64,000 bases of DNA from Deuterostichococcus epilithicus (taxonomy: Eukaryota > Chlorophyta > Trebouxiophyceae > Prasiolales > Stichococcaceae). The translations under genes and the position numbers were made by a program. The notes below the pieces were generated by a model, which was not told where the DNA came from, did no database searches, and worked only from the letters and a program-made list of their open reading frames with translations. The stretch spans positions 1,798,001 through 1,862,000 of the forward strand of contig JAVTLE010000001.1 in the NCBI GenBank assembly GCA_033439295.1, read 5' to 3'. This document shows, in pieces, positions 9,986 through 63,531 of the stretch (positions within the stretch are counted from its first letter, which is position 1; every line of letters starts with the position of its first letter).

Positions 9986-11128
9986 GCTGCTCTAAGAAGA
10001 CGGCGCTAGAATTCGAGTGATGGCCTGACCTCAGATTCGAGTCTTGACCAGCCGGAGCACCACGGTCAATGTAACTTGCGCATGATATTGAACGTCACCG
10101 TCGTGTTGAATCATCTGTCGTTCTGCCACCAGAACGCAGGAGACCTTGCAATCTCGTGCGACGTGAACGGCACCAACCCAAGCCCTTTCTTCCCCCTTTC
10201 AAATTCAAACAACCGGCGTTCGCCAGGGGCGAGACGCGAGTTTAATCAGAAGTGCTCGAAAGGGGCCAGCCGAAAGGGGAGTAGCCAGATCGCTAATAAG
10301 GCCGGCCTGCCGAGGAATGACAGCACCGGGCAGCACCCTGTAGCGTAAATTGCCACAGCAAAATGACGCATCGCAACATGCAGCAGCTGGCATGGCATGC
10401 TCATCCTGATATGATCGCAGGACTCATACAGATAGCAAATCAGCACGCTCCAGGACACTCACGGCTCGGGGTGTGGGAAAATCATAAAATGGTCATGAGA
10501 GTCGGCGCGACGTGAAGTTTCCACGCCGAAAGCGCTCGCACATCACTGCAGAAGCATTTGTGACATGTGCTGAAACAAGCAGGCGCGATTTCCAGCTCGG
10601 CTGCCAAGCATCCCTGGCCAGGCACAGCCGGGAGGATGGCTGGGGATTGAAAAGTCCTTAATTTTCCCCCGTCGTTGTTTTCTCCGAAACGCCCCTTCTG
10701 CAACCTGCTGCAGCGCGCAGCGGCTGCCAGCTGCAGCAGCCGTGCAACCTGCCAGCGGACTGCTCTGCAGCGTGGAGGCTTCCAGATCACAGTCTGCGTC
10801 TGGCAATCGTGAATACCACCCTCGTTAAAGGACCAGAGGGGTTAGTCCCAGAATCATCCCCGTTCTATGGAAAATCGTACTAAGGGCGCGGAAACGATTC
10901 TTACATCAACTCGCCAAATGTTACAACGCTGGCTGCCGGGGCGCCGTTCGCACGGCCAGCCGCAGCGCGAGGCGCCTGCCTCACGCAAGGTCTGCAGAAT
11001 GGCCCAAGGAACAGCTGACTGACCAGGGAAGACCTGAAGACGCAGACTGACACCGGCAGAAGGCGGAGGAGGTTTCCCGTCGACGACTCTTAGGGTTACT
11101 ACGGCCAGGCGGAAAACTTGAGTGCATA

Positions 11129-11153
11129 AGTTTGAATCACCGGTGATCAAACT
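11129..11153. repeat. Near-perfect 25-nt palindrome
   Basis: The sequence reads AGTTTGA-ATCACCGGTGA-TCAAACT, self-complementary apart from one extra A. It lies inside the open minus frame 11192-10854. It could be a dimer-binding site or a chance palindrome. Confidence 0.4.
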
Positions 11154-11373
11154 AACAACATAATCTGCTGGCAAGAGCATTTCTGCTGCCATAAGTTCTC
11201 CTCGTCACCAAGCATTCCTGATTGGATACCTGTGCGTATGGGATGCATCACATTGTGATGTCAACGTCATGCCGCCTCTGCCGCAGAGCACCGTTAGCAC
11301 ACTAGTTGTCTCGACTTCCTAACCATCACAAATTGGCACGAGATGACCAGTAGGACATACAAACAGACTTTTA

Positions 11374-41328: not shown

Positions 41329-41364
41329 CAGACCATGTCGTATGCCAACCAAAAACCCGATTTT

Positions 41365-41586
41365 CTCTTCTTCAGCCGCTTCAAGACATGGTTCGACGGA
41401 AAAGTCGGACGTGGCGTGCAGTTCTGGCGGCGCTCATTCGAGAGGCTTGGTCCATGAAAAATATGCGAGCATGCAACGGAAGAAAGTGTGCCCTGTTCTT
41501 TCCTCACTCTTTCCTCCTTTGTACGCGGTTTTTCTTTCTTCTCGGAGAGCAACTGAAGAAGACAAATTTGTATACAACGGAAGAAA
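41365..41586 (+). repeat. Left terminal inverted repeat of the foldback-like element
   Basis: It begins CTCTTCTTCAGCCGCTTCAA and includes GTCGGACGTGGCGTGCAG and TCGAGAGGCTTGGTCCATGA. The reverse complement at 43020-43236 is nearly identical over about 215 bases. Confidence 0.85.
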
Positions 41587-43019
41587 CTCCAAACCCTGGC
41601 TTTCTTCCGTTGTATGCATTTTTCTTCCGTTGCAGCGCCGACAGAAGAAACCAAATATACAACGGAAGAAAGTCCCAGTCCTGGCTTTCTTCCGTTGTAT
41701 GCATTTTTTCTTCCGTTGCAGCGCCAACAGAAGAAACCAAAAATACAACGGAAGAAAGTCCCAGTCCTGGCTTTCTTCCGTTGTATGCAGATTTTTTCCG
41801 TTGCAGCGCCAACAGAAGAAAACAAACATACAACGGAAGAAAGTCCCAGTCCTGGCTTTCTTCCGTTGTATGCAATCTTTCTTCCGTTGCAGCGCCAACA
41901 GAAGAACACAAACATACAACGGAAGAAATCGCCAACAGAAGAAAACAAACAAACAACGGAAGAAAGTCCCGATCCTGGCTTTCTTCCGTTGCAGCGCCAA
42001 CAGAAGAAAACAAACATACAACGGAAGAAGGTCTGACATCAGACTTTGTTCCGTTGCAGCGCCGACAGAAGAGAACAAACATACAACGGAAGAAAGTCCC
42101 AATCCTGGCTTTCTTCCGTTGTATGCATTTGTTCTTCGGTTGCAGCGCCAACATTCCTTGAACAAACATGCAACGGAAAAGAGCCAGGTTTGGGACTTTC
42201 TTCCGTTGTATGCATTTTTTCTTCGGTTGCAGCGCCAACATTCCTTTCTTCCGCTGTATGCATGTTTTCTTCCGTTGCTTTTCTTCTTCTGTTGTGTGTT
42301 TGTTTTCTTTGGTTGGCGCTGCAACTGAAGAAAACATGCATACAACGGAAAAAAGGCAGCAGAGTCGCATCCCTGGGAGTGTCTTCTCTTCAGTTGGCGC
42401 TGCAACGGAAGAAAACAAACAAGTAACGGAAGCAAATCTTGTTGAGCTTTCTTCCGTTGAATGCATTTTTTCTTCGGTTGCAGCGCCAACATTCCTTTCT
42501 TCCGCTGTATGCATGTTTTCTTCCGTTGCTTTTCTTCTTCTGTTGTGTGTATGTTTTCTTCGGTTGGCGCTGCAACCGAGGAAAACATGCATACAACGGA
42601 AAAAAGGCAGCAGAGTCGCACCCCTGGGAGTATCTGCTCTTCGGTTGCAGCGCCAACATTCCTTCCGTTGCTTTTCTTCTTCTGTTGTGTGTTTGTGTTC
42701 TTCGGTTGGGGCTGCTACGGAAGAAAACATGCATACAACGGAAGAAATTCCCAATCCTGGTTTTCTTCCGTTGTATGTTTGTTCATGGAATGTTGGCGCT
42801 GCAACCGAAGAAAAAATGCATACAACGGAAGAAAGCCAGGATCTGGACTTTCTTCCGTTGTATGTTTTTTCTCTTCTGTTGGCGCTGCAACGGAAGAAGA
42901 AATGCATACAACGGAAGAAAGCCGGGATTGGACTTTCTTCCGTTGTATGTTTGCGTTTTTCTGTCGGCGCTGCAACGGAAGAAAAATGCATACAACGGAA
43001 GAAAGCCAGGATCTGGACT

Positions 43020-43236
43020 TTCTTCCGTTGTATACAAATTTGTCTTCTTCAGTTGCTCCGAAAAGCAAAGAAAACCGCGTACAAAGGAGGAAAGAGCGAA
43101 GAAAGAACAGGGCACACTTTCTTCCGTTGCATGCTCGCCTAACTTTCATGGACCAAGCCTCTCGAATGAGCGCCGCCAGAACTGCACGCCACGTCCGACG
43201 TTTCCGTTGAACTATGTTGAAGCGGCTGAAGAAGAG
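43020..43236 (-). repeat. Right terminal inverted repeat of the foldback-like element
   Basis: This is the reverse complement of 41365-41586 with scattered mismatches and a few small indels. It ends TTGAAGCGGCTGAAGAAGAG. The pair would allow a hairpin of about 1.9 kb. Confidence 0.85.
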
Positions 43237-43335
43237 CAAACAAAGAGAACGCATACAACGGAGGAAAGAGAAGAGAGGGAGCGGGAGGGAGGGAGCGCGC
43301 GGAACGGAAGGCAAAGTGCATACAACGGGAGAAAC

Positions 43336-44460
43336 TGTGCCAGGGCGGGTGGAGAGGGTGCCTTACGAATCACCACCTCGCCCGCCTCAATGAAAGCAAA
43401 GCCAGGGATGGCCCAGGCAGGCCCTCTGCAAGTCATTGTTCGCAACGCCCTGCCTTCGACTTCCACGTCTTCTGTGATCTTGAGATCTCTTTTCCTGTGC
43501 CAGGTGCGCACAGCAAGTGGTCCTCAGCGCCCTCACCGTGCTTGACTTGCACTGCCGACACGTCGGCAGGCAAAGCGGGCATATCATCGCTTCACACTGC
43601 ATCATAGACGCCTTCGCAGGTAGCCTGCATTTTTTGGGTTTGTTAGCTTTTCCCGAGTCGACAGGTTCGTTTCTATCGGATGCTTGGCTGTGCGCCACAC
43701 AGCTCCCCCGCTTCCATGTCTGGTCAGCCATGATGGTTGGCTCTCAGAGGTGCGATTGCTGCAGGCAGGCTGTCTGATCCTGCAACAGCAGCATTGATGT
43801 ATATTCGAAATTTTCAAGTCGCACGTGTAAATGGCCAAACCTGCCATGCTGCCGCATCAGGCACTTCAGGGTATTTGTAAGCAGCATCGCCGCCCAGCTG
43901 AAGTGCTGACAGCAACCATGAACGAACGAGACGTCTGCTGCTTCACCTTATTGAAGTTTTTGCAATCAGATGCGACCTGACGATGCAAGGAAGCACCACC
44001 TCACTGCAGCACCATGACAGCAAGCATATGTTCGGGTGCAGTGTCGCCTAGAGCAGAGGTGCGGATTGTTGGGTGCGTCAACTTATCGCAGCGCTAGAGA
44101 TGTTGCTGTGCAGCCTTCCTTCAACGCACTCGGTAGCGAGGCTTGTGCGCAGCCATTGTGCAGAAGGTTCTGGTAGAACCGCCAAGCTTTCGAGCGGTGG
44201 TTGCAGTTTTGTTCCTGCACCTATCCAAAAGCTGTATTGCAAAAATTATACCTAAACGTCAACTTGATAGTGACTTCACACGGCTTCGCCAAGTTTGCTC
44301 TGGTAAGGAGACTGCGGCATTGGCAGACGGAAGGGCTGCCCGGTTGTCTCTTCGCCCTCGATCCTCCCCTGTGTGCAGCAGCAGTTCAGACGTGAAATTA
44401 ATCTGGAGATCTGATGACACGAACAAGGCTGATCACAGCAGTGCAGGCACATAGCAGGCC
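43336..44460. other. Intergenic region with one possible orphan exon
   Basis: On the minus strand about 43500-43365, a segment bounded by a CAG acceptor and a GTAAGG donor reads KRDLKITEDVEVEGRALRTM then TCRGPAWAIPGFAFIEAGEV. It looks coding, but no flanking exons were found, so it may be a gene remnant next to the repeat element. The remainder (43700-44460) shows nothing recognisable and should include the 3' UTR of the FKBP gene. Confidence 0.4.
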
Positions 44461-56891: not shown

Positions 56892-57031
56892 CAAGCAATG
56901 CTGTTGGGACCACGAGCGAGTGTGCTCGACTGCTCGGAAGATAACGTCTTGTGCAGTATGAGCACAGGGCGGGCGGACTGCAGCTGCGAAAATTCTGGCG
57001 GTGGCGCAGGGCGATTCCGAGTTGCGAATGG
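56892..57031 (+). repeat. Left 140-bp direct repeat flanking foldback copy 2
   Basis: It starts CAAGCAATGCTGTTGGGACC and ends GCGATTCCGAGTTGCGAATG plus G. The same sequence recurs in the same orientation at 58360-58495, differing by a 4-base CGAG duplication and a few substitutions. Confidence 0.88.
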
Positions 57032-58359
57032 CAGACCATGTCGTATGCAAACCACAAACCCGATTTTCTCTTCTTCAGCCGCTTCAAGACATGGTTCAAC
57101 GGAAAAGTCGGACGTGGCGTGCAGTTCTGGCGGCGCTCATTCGAGAGGCTTGGTCCATGAAAGTTATGCGAGCATGCAACGGAAGAGAGTGTGCCCTATT
57201 CTTTCTTCGCTCTTTCCTCCTTTGTACGCGTTTTTTCTTTTTTTTTCGGAGAGCAACTGAAGAAGACAAAATTATATACAACGGAAGAAAGTCCCAGTCC
57301 TGGCTTTCTTTCGTTGTATGCATTTTTCCTTCCGTTGCAGCGCCGACAGAAGAAACCACACATACAACGGAAGAAAGTCCCAGTCCTGGCTTTCTTCCGT
57401 TGTAAGCATTGTTTCTTCCGTTGCAGCGCCAACAGAAGAAAACAAGCATATAACGGAAGAACGTCCCAGTCCTGGCTTTCTTCCGTTGTATGCATTGTTT
57501 CTTCTGTTGCAGCGCCAACAGAAGAAAACAAGCATACAACGGAAGAACGTCCTATCCTGGCTTTCTTCCGTTGTATGCATTTTTTCTTCCGTTGCAGCGC
57601 TGACAGAAAAACGCAAACATACAACGGAAGAAAGTCCCAGTCCTGGCTTTCTTCCGTTGTATGCATTTTTTCTTCCGTTGCAGCGCCGACAGAAGAAGAC
57701 AAACATACAACGGAAGAAAGACCCAGTCCTGGCTTTCTTCCGTTGTAAGCATTGTTTCTTCCGTTGCAGCGCCAACAGAAGAAAACAAGCATATAACGGA
57801 AGAACGTCCCAGTCCTGGCTTTCTTCCGTTGTATGCATTGTTTCTTCTGTTGCAGCGCCAACAGAAGAAAACAAGCATACAACGGAAGAACGTCCTATCC
57901 TGGCTTTCTTCCGTTGTATGCATTTTTTCTTCCGTTGCAGCGCTGACAGAAAAACGCAAACATACAACGGAAGAAAGTCCCAGTCCTGGCTTTCTTCCGT
58001 TGTATGCATTTTTTCTTCCGTTGCAGCGCCGACAGAAGAAACCAAGCATACAACGGAAGAAAGTCCCAGTCCTGGCTTTCTTATTGCCTTTCTTCCGTTG
58101 TATGCATGTTTTCTTCCGTTGCAGCGCCGACCGAAAGGAATGTTGGCGCTGCAACCGAAGAAAAAATGCATACAACGGAAGAAAGCCAGGACTGGGACTT
58201 TCTTACGTTGTATGCATTTTTTCTTCGGTCGGCGCTGCAACGGAAGAAACATGTATACAACGGAAGAAAGCCAGGACTGGGACTTTCTTACGTTGTATGT
58301 TTGTGTTGTTCAGTCGACGCTGCAACGGAGAAACAAATGGGCGTTCGCCGGGGGCGAGA
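57032..58359. mobile_element. Foldback-like element, copy 2, lacking the right terminal arm
   Basis: The left end (CAGACCATGTCGTATGC and the following about 220 bases) matches copy 1 at 41330. The interior is a regular array of about 86-bp units, for example unit starts at 57361, 57447, 57533 and 57618, each holding CATACAACGGAAGAA facing CTTTCTTCCGTTGTATG across a CCCAGTCCTGG spacer. After 58135 the spacer motif flips to GGCGCTGCAAC, as in the right half of copy 1, but the array stops near 58335. The outer right inverted arm seen in copy 1 is absent. The element sits exactly between the two 140-bp direct repeats. There is no transposase. Confidence 0.75.
57361..58046 (+). repeat. 343-bp higher-order tandem duplication inside the array
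   Basis: Segments 57361-57703 and 57704-58046 each contain the same four consecutive 86-bp unit variants in the same order, including the diagnostic GTTGTAAGCATTG and CATATAACGG variants and GAACGTCCTATCC. The exact 343-base offset shows that four units were duplicated as a block. Confidence 0.85.
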
Positions 58360-58495
58360 CAAGCAATGCTGTTGGGACCACGAGTGTGCTCGACTGCTCG
58401 GAAGAGAACGTCTTGTGCAGTATAAGCACAGGGCGGGCAGACTGCAGCTGCGAAAATTCCGGCGGTGGCGCAGGGCGATTCCGAGTTGCGAATGG
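58360..58495 (+). repeat. Right 136-bp direct repeat flanking foldback copy 2
   Basis: Matches 56892-57031 in the same orientation, including CTCGGAAGA, AACGTCTTGTGCAGTAT, GCACAGGGCGGGC and GACTGCAGCTGCGAAAATTC. It immediately follows a 30-base stretch resembling 10206-10235. Confidence 0.88.
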
Positions 58496-58926: not shown

Positions 58927-61900
58927 TCACTGGCCGAAGGGGAACGTCTCCGGCACCTGCATGCGCATAGAGAGCATGCGTGCACATGACCTTTTGGTGG
59001 TCACGTAGGTTTGACGACGTTCCTGGCAGAACACCTGCTCTCATTGAAAGACACGTGTGCTCTCTGGCACCACACCTCGCCCTTCTCAGGCAGCGGCTGC
59101 TCCTCCTGGCGGTCCAGAGGCCGCACCGCCGTTGAGTCCTCCCAGAAGGCCACCACATCAAACTGCCGCCCCAGGGACGCGTTGAAGAAGTGGGCGCGCC
59201 GCTCCACGAACGGCGTCTCATCTGCTCACACAGCAACACCAACTTTGCATAGCTGTTGTTCAGGGGTTTAGGCAAATAAACGCGGGACCACAGGAGGCCT
59301 CGCAATGGCTCGCACAGACTGCGTGCGTGTGAACATACTCTGAGGTGCGCACTGCGGTAGATGACGCCAATGGCGCGTTCCGGGCAGGGCTGCTCCAGGG
59401 CAGCCGCCAGGGCAGCCGGCGCGGCCCGCAGCTTCACACCCGCCATCGGCAGCCCCACCTCGTGCAGCTGCGCCTCGTGGCTGCCTGCGCTGCGCCGTCA
59501 AGCCAGCGTCGGCTGGCGTTGAATTGATGAGATCGACAGCACACAACATGGCGGGGTTGCCTGGATACAGGCTCCCTGAGTCCCTGTCGACGACAGCCAC
59601 AGTCTCAGAAAGTTCACAGTAGAATTCCTCACGATGCTCCACGTTAAAATAATTACTGCCCGTTGTGACAAAGATGCTACAGCGCCTGACACAGATGTCA
59701 GGCTTCAATCCAATATGATGTCGCAGTCGCTGGCATCTGTAGTAGGCACTTAGACGTGACTACACCTGGCATTGCGGGTGTGACTTTCTTGAACTTCAGC
59801 GGCTCGCCCCACTCGTCCGCCGCAGCCACCATGCCCTTGTACCTGAGCGCCAGCAAGTAGGGTCTCCTCACACCACTTCAGCTTTCAGGCTTGTGACATT
59901 GCCTTCCCGAAGAGGCAGTCAGCTCACACACCTCACCTCGCCTGTGTACATGACTGCGTCAAGGTCTGCACAGAAATCAGCAGTGTGTAGTGCACCCATC
60001 ACCTAAGCTGATCAACGAGGCTTGCCTGCTCAACTGCCTCCCACGTGCAAACGGGGTCATCAGCAGAGCTAGGCGCCCATCCCAGCAGGCCTGGCAGGCG
60101 CCTGTGACTGTCGATCTTGTGCCCTTCCCGCCGCATGCAGCGGGCGTCAGAACCTTGCACTTCGATGAGACGTGCCGCTCACCCCAGCTGGCCGACAAGG
60201 CAAACGCTGTCTTCTCCGTACTTCTCGCGCGTCAGCTGCCCCAGGTTGACCTCGCTGCGGGCAGTGCCCATGTCGGTGTAGCGCGCGTCGCCCAGGTGCG
60301 AGTTATGGGCCCACAGCACGACGCGGGGCTGGCCGACGCCGCGCGAGCGCAGGTGGTCCGCCACGTCCGCCGCCGTCTGCGCCATGTGCTTCTCCCGGAT
60401 GTTCCATGTAATCTCATCCTGGTGGGGGATCGGGAGAAGGAGGTTCTCGCGCCATCAGCATCGCTCCCTTGTGTCTGAGGTACTGAGGCTGATCGGGGTG
60501 CATCACGATAGTGCCACTCCAGGCACAGCGTCCGCCTGACCAATCTCGCTTGCAGCAGGCGGAGCAGTACCCACATCTGCTCAGGGTCGGGCCCGTTCCC
60601 GTCTCACCAGCAGCGACACAAGGTTTGCTCATGCAGCTCTTGAAGATATCGTCAATGGCTGGGGAAACAGGGGGGTGGGGGGCACCTTGAAGAACATCTG
60701 GGCGTAGTAGTCCTGCAAATGCCGCCAGCCAAGCACACAGCATCAGCAGGGTGTTTTCAGCCGAGCGAATGAACGATGTCAAGTCAGAGATGTCACTCTG
60801 ACACCCTCCGTAGATGGGACGACATGCTCGCAACCATTTGGCTGCTGTAGTTCACGCATCGAGTCGTCCCCATACATCGATGCTGATGGCGGCGCCCCCA
60901 CCTCTGCATCGACGACCACTTTGGCGTTCTCCACCGCTGCAAAGGCCGCCTCTTCCTCTCCGAGCTTGCCCGTCAAGTTGTGCTTGCGCTCGCCCACCTG
61001 GTGTCAAGCCACAACCAGCCGTCAGAAGAAGCCCTCCAGCAGCAATCGCCATTCGGCAGCAGCAATAACCGTCAACAGCAGATGCCATCATTGATTTGTT
61101 AGTTAACGATGCACTGCCCGGCTCTCAAGTTTTGTGACAGACCCGCACGCATGAGTGGGCCGCTTCCCAGCCGCAGAGAAAGCACGCACTTTCAATGACA
61201 GGATTGTCCACGCCCGCTTTGACACCTTGATGGCCGAAGACTTAAGGATGAACCTAGAAGGGCCTGAAGACGAACAAACGTTTCATGATCACCCACCTTG
61301 CGGAGGACCTCCACAAGCTCCTCCACCGCATCCTTCTCACATGGGGTGCCGCCCATGGCCAGCCCGAAGGCATAGTTCACCGCCTCTTGCCCGTATCTGC
61401 AGCAGGTCGAAGAATTTATGGAGCCTATGCAATCCCCCGGCTATGAACTTGAAATGAGGCTGATCCTGTGAAAATGTGCTGGCTTTCGACTGTGATAGGC
61501 CCCGGTTCTGATGATGCCCCTGCAAGCTGCGCCAATGCTCCACAAAGCAGGCGGCAGTAGGCAGCAATGCCGGCCATAAGTGAGGGGGAATGAACAGCTG
61601 TAATTGAGTCCTAGTCTTACAAGTAAAGGCACACTTGTCGAAGCAGCTGTAGCGCTGGCGGGTGCGCTTGGCGGCCTCTTTGTCGCCAGCCTTTTCCAGG
61701 TACTTGATGACCGCGGCGGCGGAAGCGTGCAGGCTGTACAGGTCGAGGCCATAGAAACCCACCCGGCGCGTGCGCGCCTGCACGCAGAAACGGATGAGGT
61801 TGCAGAAGCACACGGCCGGTGGGAGTGTTGCTGTTGCTTGGTAAGACTTCAAAGTGCACAGACATGCACAGACCCATGCGGGGAGGCGAGCTGACGGACA

Positions 61901-63531
61901 GGACGCTGCCTGAGCGGCCGGCTGCGGCGCATCGACGGGCGTGACAGCGCATCAGGATGGCACGGCTTGGGTGTTAAGACAGCCTGCTGTGGAGCAGTCG
62001 CAGCAGGTTCCCATCATACTTGAGAAGGTCCGGCGTCTTGTTGCAGTGACCGGACTCAGCTGTGACGCCAGTGTCCCTTGACTGTCCCCATCTCCTGCCA
62101 CTGACCCCAGTCTGCGATCAGGGATCGAGGCCCCACAGTCATGCAGCCACTCAACTCAGCTGCCAAAAAGCGCACCTCCTCTTCGGGGATTTTGCCGTTG
62201 CGCTCATGCAGCCAGGAGAGGAAGCCCGCCACCTCTTCATTGCGCCACATCCATGTCGGGAAGCGCTGTTGTTGCAGGTGGGCGCACACTGTGATGATCA
62301 GCTGTTGTTGACCGCCATCATCATCGTTATGCGGAGGACCAGAAAGAGGTTGCGTTGCGCCTCTGACTCGCCAGCTGAGGGGCCACGACGGCAACACCAG
62401 GCAGGCCACAGGTCCACGAGGAGTTACAGCCTTTGGGCAACATACCAGCACATGTGCGCACACACTACCACAGGGAGATTTGAACTTACCTTGAACTCCG
62501 ACAGCGCCTCGGAAGCGTCCGCTGAGCTGACAGCGTCCTGGTCGCCCATCAGGTGCTGCACCCACAGATTTACGCGGACGGCATCCGGGAAGTCTGCATG
62601 GCATGTTTGTGAATGGAAGAGCCTGAGGACAGCGAAGGTCTGCCGCAGAGCTGCGGCGAACCCTGTCAATGTCGCGGCTCACGAGCGATCAGAGCAAACA
62701 CATGTGAGCCTGTGGCAAAGGCATGGTGCATGTCTGGCAAGTCCAAGTGACAATATCGGGTGCGAGGACTGCTCACTGACGGCAACCCATGCGTGAAAAA
62801 GGAAACTTGCAGCCGCCTTCAGCTCCTGATAGCGGCGAAGTGGAGTGAGGTTCAAGCGTGATGCGGTAGCCGGTAGGCAGCACAGGGCTGAACATCCATT
62901 CAACTACATTGGGGATCGATCAATCTAGCACGCTCGCCTGCCTCGGCGCAGATGGCATTAGAGCCGCGCTGCTTGATGAGAGACCTGGTCATTTCTGCAC
63001 GCACCTGGTAGTACTCGTGTGTGCCGTGCGACCCCTCGCCGATCAGCACCCAGTCCGCCTGTGCGGTCCCGGCAGCAGCGGCCCTTGGCATTTTCTTGGG
63101 TACGGGTGGGTGAAGACCATGCATGTGTTGAAGGCTCGCAACTGGCAGAGACAGCAGACAAATGATCAGAGGCTCAATGAGCGAGCATGCCGCCAGCACA
63201 TCATGGGCAAGCCTTGGATGCTGCGGCTGCGTCACAAGGTGCAGCTGGGAGCAGCGCCAGAGAGCTGACGGACCTGCTCCGGGATCAAGTCCAGCAGCTG
63301 CTGCGCCGCTGAGTCCGACTTCAGTGGGAAGGCTGCCGCCTTCAGCGCCTCGACCACCTTGTTGCTGGCAGACGGCTGCTTTGACGGCGCAGCCATGGTG
63401 CCAGTGCCGGTGCCGGTGCCACTGCTGGCTGCGACCGCAACGTCGGCTCTCGTCGGACTGCTCTCTGAAACTTTCAGGGCTCTTAAGCCAGAAGGGGCTG
63501 GCAGACGGGCCTGCAGGGTGGTTCTGCACAT
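58927..63531 (-). CDS. Erythromycin-esterase-family protein, probably organelle-targeted
   Basis: The family contains bacterial macrolide esterases and many uncharacterised hydrolase-like proteins. The ATG at 63531 opens a Ser/Arg-rich, acid-poor leader, possibly a transit peptide; an internal ATG at 63396 begins [15 protein letters not shown]. Family motifs follow in order: [20 protein letters not shown] (about 63055-62995), with the His that is the proposed base in EreB, then [20 protein letters not shown] (about 62260), [20 protein letters not shown] (about 61770), [11 protein letters not shown] (about 61375), [20 protein letters not shown] (about 60330), [16 protein letters not shown] (about 60255), [11 protein letters not shown] (about 59380), and [20 protein letters not shown] (about 59190). 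A final mini-exon reads VPETFPFGQ with TGA at 58929-58927. The reading is complete with no missing catalytic segment. The physiological substrate in an alga is unknown. Confidence 0.86.

Follow-up and report, generated by a model that had tools for sequence, protein, structure and literature searches.

The 64,000-nucleotide stretch of Deuterostichococcus epilithicus DNA analyzed here, hereafter the window, carries two copies of a non-coding palindromic repeat family that is dispersed in the genome. Using the whole element and an arm as queries against the 46.8-Mb genome (21 contigs), we identified at least 12 loci and at least 20 arm matches. Five of the loci are on contig C1, to which the window belongs, two are on C14, and C10, C12, C16, C18, and C19 have one each. 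Two arms are present in eight loci and one arm in the other four; the C16 locus consists of two clusters 4.7 kb apart, which were counted as one. The first-pass annotation had described a single palindrome of ~86-bp units with ~215-bp inverted arms at 41329–43335 and had proposed a genome search for further copies. Repeat finding, arm pairing, and folding confirm this palindrome, with inverted arms of ~200 bp, the search shows it to be dispersed, and a second copy, absent from that annotation, is present in the same window (table 1).

Table 1. Coordinates, in the window, of the two palindromic copies and of their parts and flanks
Feature	Position	Strand	Remarks
Copy 1 of the palindromic element	41329..43569		L021 3830–6070
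Left inverted arm	41365..41586	+	
Right inverted arm	43020..43236	−	95% identity with the left arm over the ~95–100 bp compared
~86-bp double-hairpin unit array, left half	41572..41928	+	Tandem Repeats Finder; period 86, 93% matches
~86-bp unit array, right half, inverted	42677..43033	−	Tandem Repeats Finder; period 86, 84% matches
Outer flank common to copy 1 and the C10 copy (L013)	43336..43569		
Palindrome CTGCCGAC-AC-GTCGGCAG	43552..43569		Homology of copy 1 with the C10 copy (L013) stops here
Copy 2	57032..58359		L009 4033–5360; left arm present
86-bp repeat in copy 2	57276..58082	+	9.4 units; Tandem Repeats Finder
Direct repeat, 140 bp	56892..57031	+	Adjoins copy 2 on the left
Direct repeat, 136 bp	58360..58495	+	Adjoins copy 2 on the right; 94% identity

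The inverted arms of copy 1 pair as follows: 41386–41547 with 43056–43217 (162 nt, 93% complementary) and 41547–41675 with 42930–43058 (129 nt, 95% complementary). The spacing of its units is mostly 85–87 bp, with shorter units of 37 and 65 bp. Each of the three units that we folded gives two hairpins (z −6.7 to −8.0). In the unit 41657–41742, one hairpin has an 18-bp stem closed by an 8-nt loop and the other 11 pairs and a mismatch; the folding energy is −36.5 kcal/mol, compared with −14.2 on average for shuffled sequences (z −8.0). The 961-nt core (41840–42800) folds at −495 kcal/mol against −272 (z −44.6, 20 shuffles). The hairpin that had been proposed for the unit thus stands, with a stem of 18 bp in the folded unit instead of 17. 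A spacer motif had also been said to flip to its complement in the second half, and this is seen: GTTGCAGCGCCAAC in the left half becomes GTTGGCGCTGCAAC in the right half, and the middle of the element (about 42190–42660) has mixed orientations. Of the extent first proposed we kept the left part, its limit at 41329 being uncertain because most end types are known from only two copies; the right end at 43335 probably falls short, as homology with the C10 copy reaches ~43569. Copy 1 (41329–43569) has a G+C content of 48% and 43 occurrences of the motif AACGGAA; the remainder of the window, with both copies excluded, has 61% G+C and a single AACGGAA. Long stop-free frames cross the unit array in several frames, the longest (514 amino acids) lying on the minus strand at 41504–43048. 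This frame, the one scanned, has Pfam matches that are all under the cut-off, and we saw no coding signal; the first-pass annotation had reported no transposase. We attribute the long open frames to the unit being poor in stop codons.

Among the 125 exact matches to ATACAACGGAAGAAA in the genome (64 forward and 61 reverse), 123 are within family loci (64 forward and 59 reverse) and the remaining two are reverse. Three copies are truncated (L009, which is copy 2, L011, and L012), and short solitary pieces of the family were found at C19:2154.9k and C9:1519.9k. The right side of copy 2 stops ~30 bp into a different, 1-kb repeat. Comparison of 19 of the 20 arms, the truncated left arm of L013 being omitted, revealed two prominent arm types. 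L010, L014, and L019 have one of each, and L011, L012, and the C16 copy have the first type only. The two arms are 97.5% identical to each other in L016 and 94.6% in L021. Based on these identities and on the mixed arm types, some copies look like later inverted duplications, and others appear to have inherited two different arms.

L010 contains, inside the palindrome, a segment of ~780 bp (L010:4140–4913) with no further match in this genome. Beside it is a motif that we take to be a tRNA-like T-arm, also present at the truncated left end of L012; ARAGORN identified no tRNA gene in the 11 loci submitted to it. The C16 pair (11.3 and 16.6 kb) was considered as one element with gene cargo, which was not supported; it may represent two insertions. 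The 4.7 kb between its clusters encode a histone-fold domain of the CBF/NF-Y type (L017:5111–5431, PF00808, E 6.5e-9). In a viral collection, two stretches exactly match a 17-mer and nine a 16-mer, with one match each, and these were taken as chance. On the minus strand of the window, 61337–61951 encode part of a domain of the erythromycin-esterase type (PF05139, E 4e-13).

A 1-kb repeat belongs to a separate dispersed family. It starts with AACAATGGGCG and ends with the hairpin TCACCGAAGGTGA followed by TCAAACTAA, and by its motifs resembles a non-autonomous Helitron-like element. It is found at 10207–11158 of the window and forms the inner 1 kb of L014, L019, and L020, which we had considered as a part of the palindromic element and rejected as such. 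In these three of the 12 palindromes it sits at the same kind of unit site, L019 having a different subtype. At least 83 candidates were identified, 40 of which were scored and 20 loci read.

End-by-end alignment of the palindromic copies showed that the arm is conserved and the sequence outside it is not, and revealed no common terminal sequence. The start GCAGACCATGTCGTATGC is common only to the two window copies, which share the start CAGACCATGTCG; two of the 20 arm matches begin at query base 1, and the remaining 18 at query bases 32–52. We distinguished an end A (L014 and L011, partly L016), an end B (L014 and L010, partly L016), a third type (the window copy and L013), and a fourth, D (L015 and L020). 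As most end types are seen in only two copies, a shared stop shows where the shorter copy ends and does not establish a fixed end. The length of flank carried along also varies: 78 bp of A-type flank in L011 and 20 bp in L014, ~145 bp of D-type flank in L020 and 67 bp in L015. Pieces of both flanks are also present in the genome without the element. The A-type flank is found at C12:3488.5k (78 bp, 95%), with no other family sequence in 1.4 kb, and the D-type flank at C9:74.5k (146 columns, 90%), with no other family sequence in 1.7 kb. The left end of L013 is a snap-back, CCACCTCGCCCGCCT being followed by a 7-nt loop and its perfect 15-bp complement, a feature absent from L021 and from the right end of L013. 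L013:3950–5720 is palindromic into part of the outer flank, as though the copy had arisen by fold-back copying of one half. We scanned 25 boundary positions (L010 right twice) for inverted repeats and, apart from L013 left, found none longer than 8 bp; in controls, 54 of 2,000 windows contained 8 bp or more, the longest 10. At L013 left the scan returned 9 bp only, its window having cut the 15-bp inverted repeat.

Direct repeats abut four of the 12 copies: 140/136 bp with 94% identity in L009, 61 bp (98%) in L012, 66 bp (95%) in L014, and 22 bp (91%) in L019. Their left–right flank scores are 117, 59, 60, and 18, respectively, compared with a best score of 14 in 132 pairs of flanks from different loci. 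In a local control of 1,000 pairs at 1–2.4 kb, the best score was 21, with only one pair at 18 or more and none at 50 or more; as this pair exceeds the score of L019, L019 is the weakest of the four duplications. As a further control, 20 loci of the unrelated 1-kb repeat, including the double copy L033, had no adjoining direct repeat with an E value of 0.05 or lower, a threshold that short duplications would escape. The repeats were known when the boundaries for scoring were drawn, and exact abutment is therefore partly by construction. Two observations are independent of the repeats: the homology of the left side of L009 with copy 1 ends at the repeat, and on either side of L014 the homology with L011 and L010 breaks off no more than 3 bp from it. 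No duplication above control is seen in the remaining eight copies, where a decayed short duplication is possible; an 11-bp repeat in L010 is neatly placed on the left but inside the control range. Inspection for target-site duplications, suggested at the outset, revealed direct repeats, but of 22, 61, 66, and ~140 bp instead of 7–10 bp. Neither the 8- to 10-bp duplication of MULE-type Foldback elements (the repeats above control measure 22, 61, 66, and 136–140 bp) nor the 7- to 8-bp duplication of Galileo and the P superfamily was observed in the 12 copies. Even the four duplication-bearing copies differ in their ends. No empty counterpart of these four sites was found, and each repeat may be a local duplication of independent origin; local repeats do occur, as in the control pair with a score of 21.

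Two junctions carry telomere repeats. The telomere repeat of this genome is TTTAGGG, and at least four contigs (C1, C3, C4, and C5) end in arrays of it. The start of L010 is GTTTAGGGTTTAGGGTTT. The end of L012 is AAACCCTAAA, directly followed by the direct repeat of this copy. Among the 12 stretches scanned, TTTAGGGTTT or its complement was found only at L010 left and L012 right. A further telomere-like stretch with TTTAGGGTTT is present at window 8978, away from both copies.

In our view, there is about an even chance that this non-coding palindrome spread by copying at the DNA level and capture at staggered breaks, rather than through an enzyme cutting at fixed ends, with arms renewed by foldback template switching, a reading drawn from one genome in which every insertion site is seen occupied. 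Hairpin-rich DNA would stall or break, and would be copied or released. The palindrome would then be pasted into staggered double-strand breaks, where fill-in of the overhangs would generate the long flanking duplications. Foldback template switching would create and renew the inverted arms, and unequal exchange would alter the number of units. This reading draws on published break repair. In yeast, templated insertions occur at breaks, as do inverted double insertions and short foldback duplications (PMC11724301), telomere repeats are inserted at breaks, sometimes with target duplications (PMC2246262), insertions with duplications are described in rice (PMC7407515), and duplications arise at breaks with overhangs (PMC8355091). 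As in templated insertions, the copies have variable ends and carry donor flank. From this single genome and its filled sites, we infer that capture at breaks accounts for the ends, the duplications, the carried flanks, and the telomere repeats better than a transposase does. Against it, eight of the 12 copies have no duplication above control, the inverted repeats at the boundaries scanned are ordinary except at L013 left, and L010, L014, and L019 retain the same two distinct arms, as a unit moving as a whole would. Furthermore, 12 related copies are many for chance, unless the palindrome is a preferred donor. A broader proposition, which we put forward as tentative, is that a nuclear palindrome could multiply without an enzyme of its own, its hairpins provoking breaks and foldback synthesis and its copies being captured at staggered breaks elsewhere. 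If true, it is a structure that spreads, not a gene or an end recognized by a transposase.

The first-pass annotation had named a foldback-like element, which might be a lineage-specific foldback family or a source of double-stranded RNA. A non-autonomous DNA transposon of the Foldback type, mobilized in trans by an unseen transposase, would have the AACGGAA-rich units as binding sites, and its decay and subsequent rearrangement would leave ragged ends and long duplications. Dispersal, long inverted arms built of subrepeats, the enrichment of AACGGAA in copy 1, and the arm pair kept in three copies are all in line with this, and Galileo arms hold extra binding sites in repeats (as cited in PMC4079207). 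We nevertheless consider it unlikely: the copies share no terminal sequence, the duplications above control span 22–140 bp, and the MULE transposase domain PF10551, the one Pfam family searched, has no match at E 0.001 or better in the 46.8 Mb (six frames, introns ignored). The arm search, also used to look for an autonomous relative, led to the 12 loci only, where all 20 matches were placed; these counts are lower bounds, and diverged arms may escape. What holds of the foldback family first proposed is its dispersal and its palindromic structure at several scales, not the transposon with defined ends.

Retroposition, in which a LINE-type enzyme uses a nick to reverse-transcribe a hairpin transcript, would yield duplications of variable length, such as the 22–140 bp of the four copies, as well as truncated copies such as L009, L011, and L012, and the carry-over of flanks resembles transduction. 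It is nonetheless quite improbable, since both ends vary among the four copies with clear duplications, leaving no constant 3′ end, the ends read have no poly-A tail, visual comparison of the four left boundaries revealed no common T-rich nick motif, and telomere DNA lies at two junctions.

An additional extrachromosomal form of the palindrome, capped by telomeres or ending in hairpins and integrating occasionally, might be suggested by the snap-back end of L013 and by the telomere repeats, which are found at two ends sharing one arm type and are two to three units long at one of these. None of the copies read has a long telomere tract, and those nearest to contig ends are 11 kb (C16) and about 21 kb (C1) away, which makes such a form highly improbable.

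We give hardly any credence to the copies being kept for a hairpin RNA product such as small RNAs, despite the very strong folding of single units and core: the stems show no excess of covariation, with three compensatory changes in 91 hairpins (selected for having no more than four substitutions per stem relative to a typed consensus) against a shuffle mean of 4.5. Three or more changes were reached by 1,612 of 2,000 shuffles, which gives an RNA function, including the source of double-stranded RNA suggested in the first-pass annotation, no support. In the six of 12 loci searched against Rfam, no family attained its gathering score (149 matches at E up to 5, all under that score among the matches listed).

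Dispersed non-coding repeats that are palindromic or built of hairpins are known from mitochondria, in sponges (PMC2800124) and in the green alga Lobosphaera (PMC4524435). Unlike our family, these are organelle DNA, and the parts of these reports consulted do not describe a kilobase palindrome of such units. Among the literature matches listed, from a search outside which most subscription journals lay, none describes the sequence or reports a nuclear family of this kind from a green alga. Because of their shape, Foldback-like repeats are readily classed as transposons. Like the Mutator-type Foldback elements Tetris (PMC4079207) and Tm1 (PMC3169594), the family has long inverted arms of tandem subrepeats, little or no coding capacity, and rearranged forms. 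However, these elements are reported with defined ends and with target duplications of 8–10 bp (Tetris) or mostly 9 bp (Tm1), whereas here the ends vary and the duplications are much longer. Long, dynamic, foldback-like arms are also found in Galileo, of the P superfamily, for which defined ends, a known transposase, and 7- to 8-bp target duplications with a consensus are described (PMC4168063); the palindromes lack a duplication of this length. Since its duplications and ends are unlike those of Tetris, Tm1, and Galileo, and PF10551 has no match in the genome, we do not claim membership of Foldback for the family despite the likeness. It has the shape of a Foldback element, differs from one in ends, duplications, and MULE transposase, and bears marks of break repair instead. 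If this is correct, some dispersed palindromes filed as transposons may be repair products, and the family would be a natural archive of both foldback synthesis and the filling-in of breaks. With the templated or inverted insertions reported at breaks (PMC11724301; in rice, PMC7407515), it shares variable ends, inverted fragments, and flanking duplications, and possibly, at one end, a short foldback duplication; those insertions are separate events with various donors, whereas here one palindrome recurs at 12 loci or more. Likewise, interstitial telomere insertions (PMC2246262) have telomere repeats at the junction, sometimes with a target duplication, but in this family the telomere repeats flank a larger palindromic insert.
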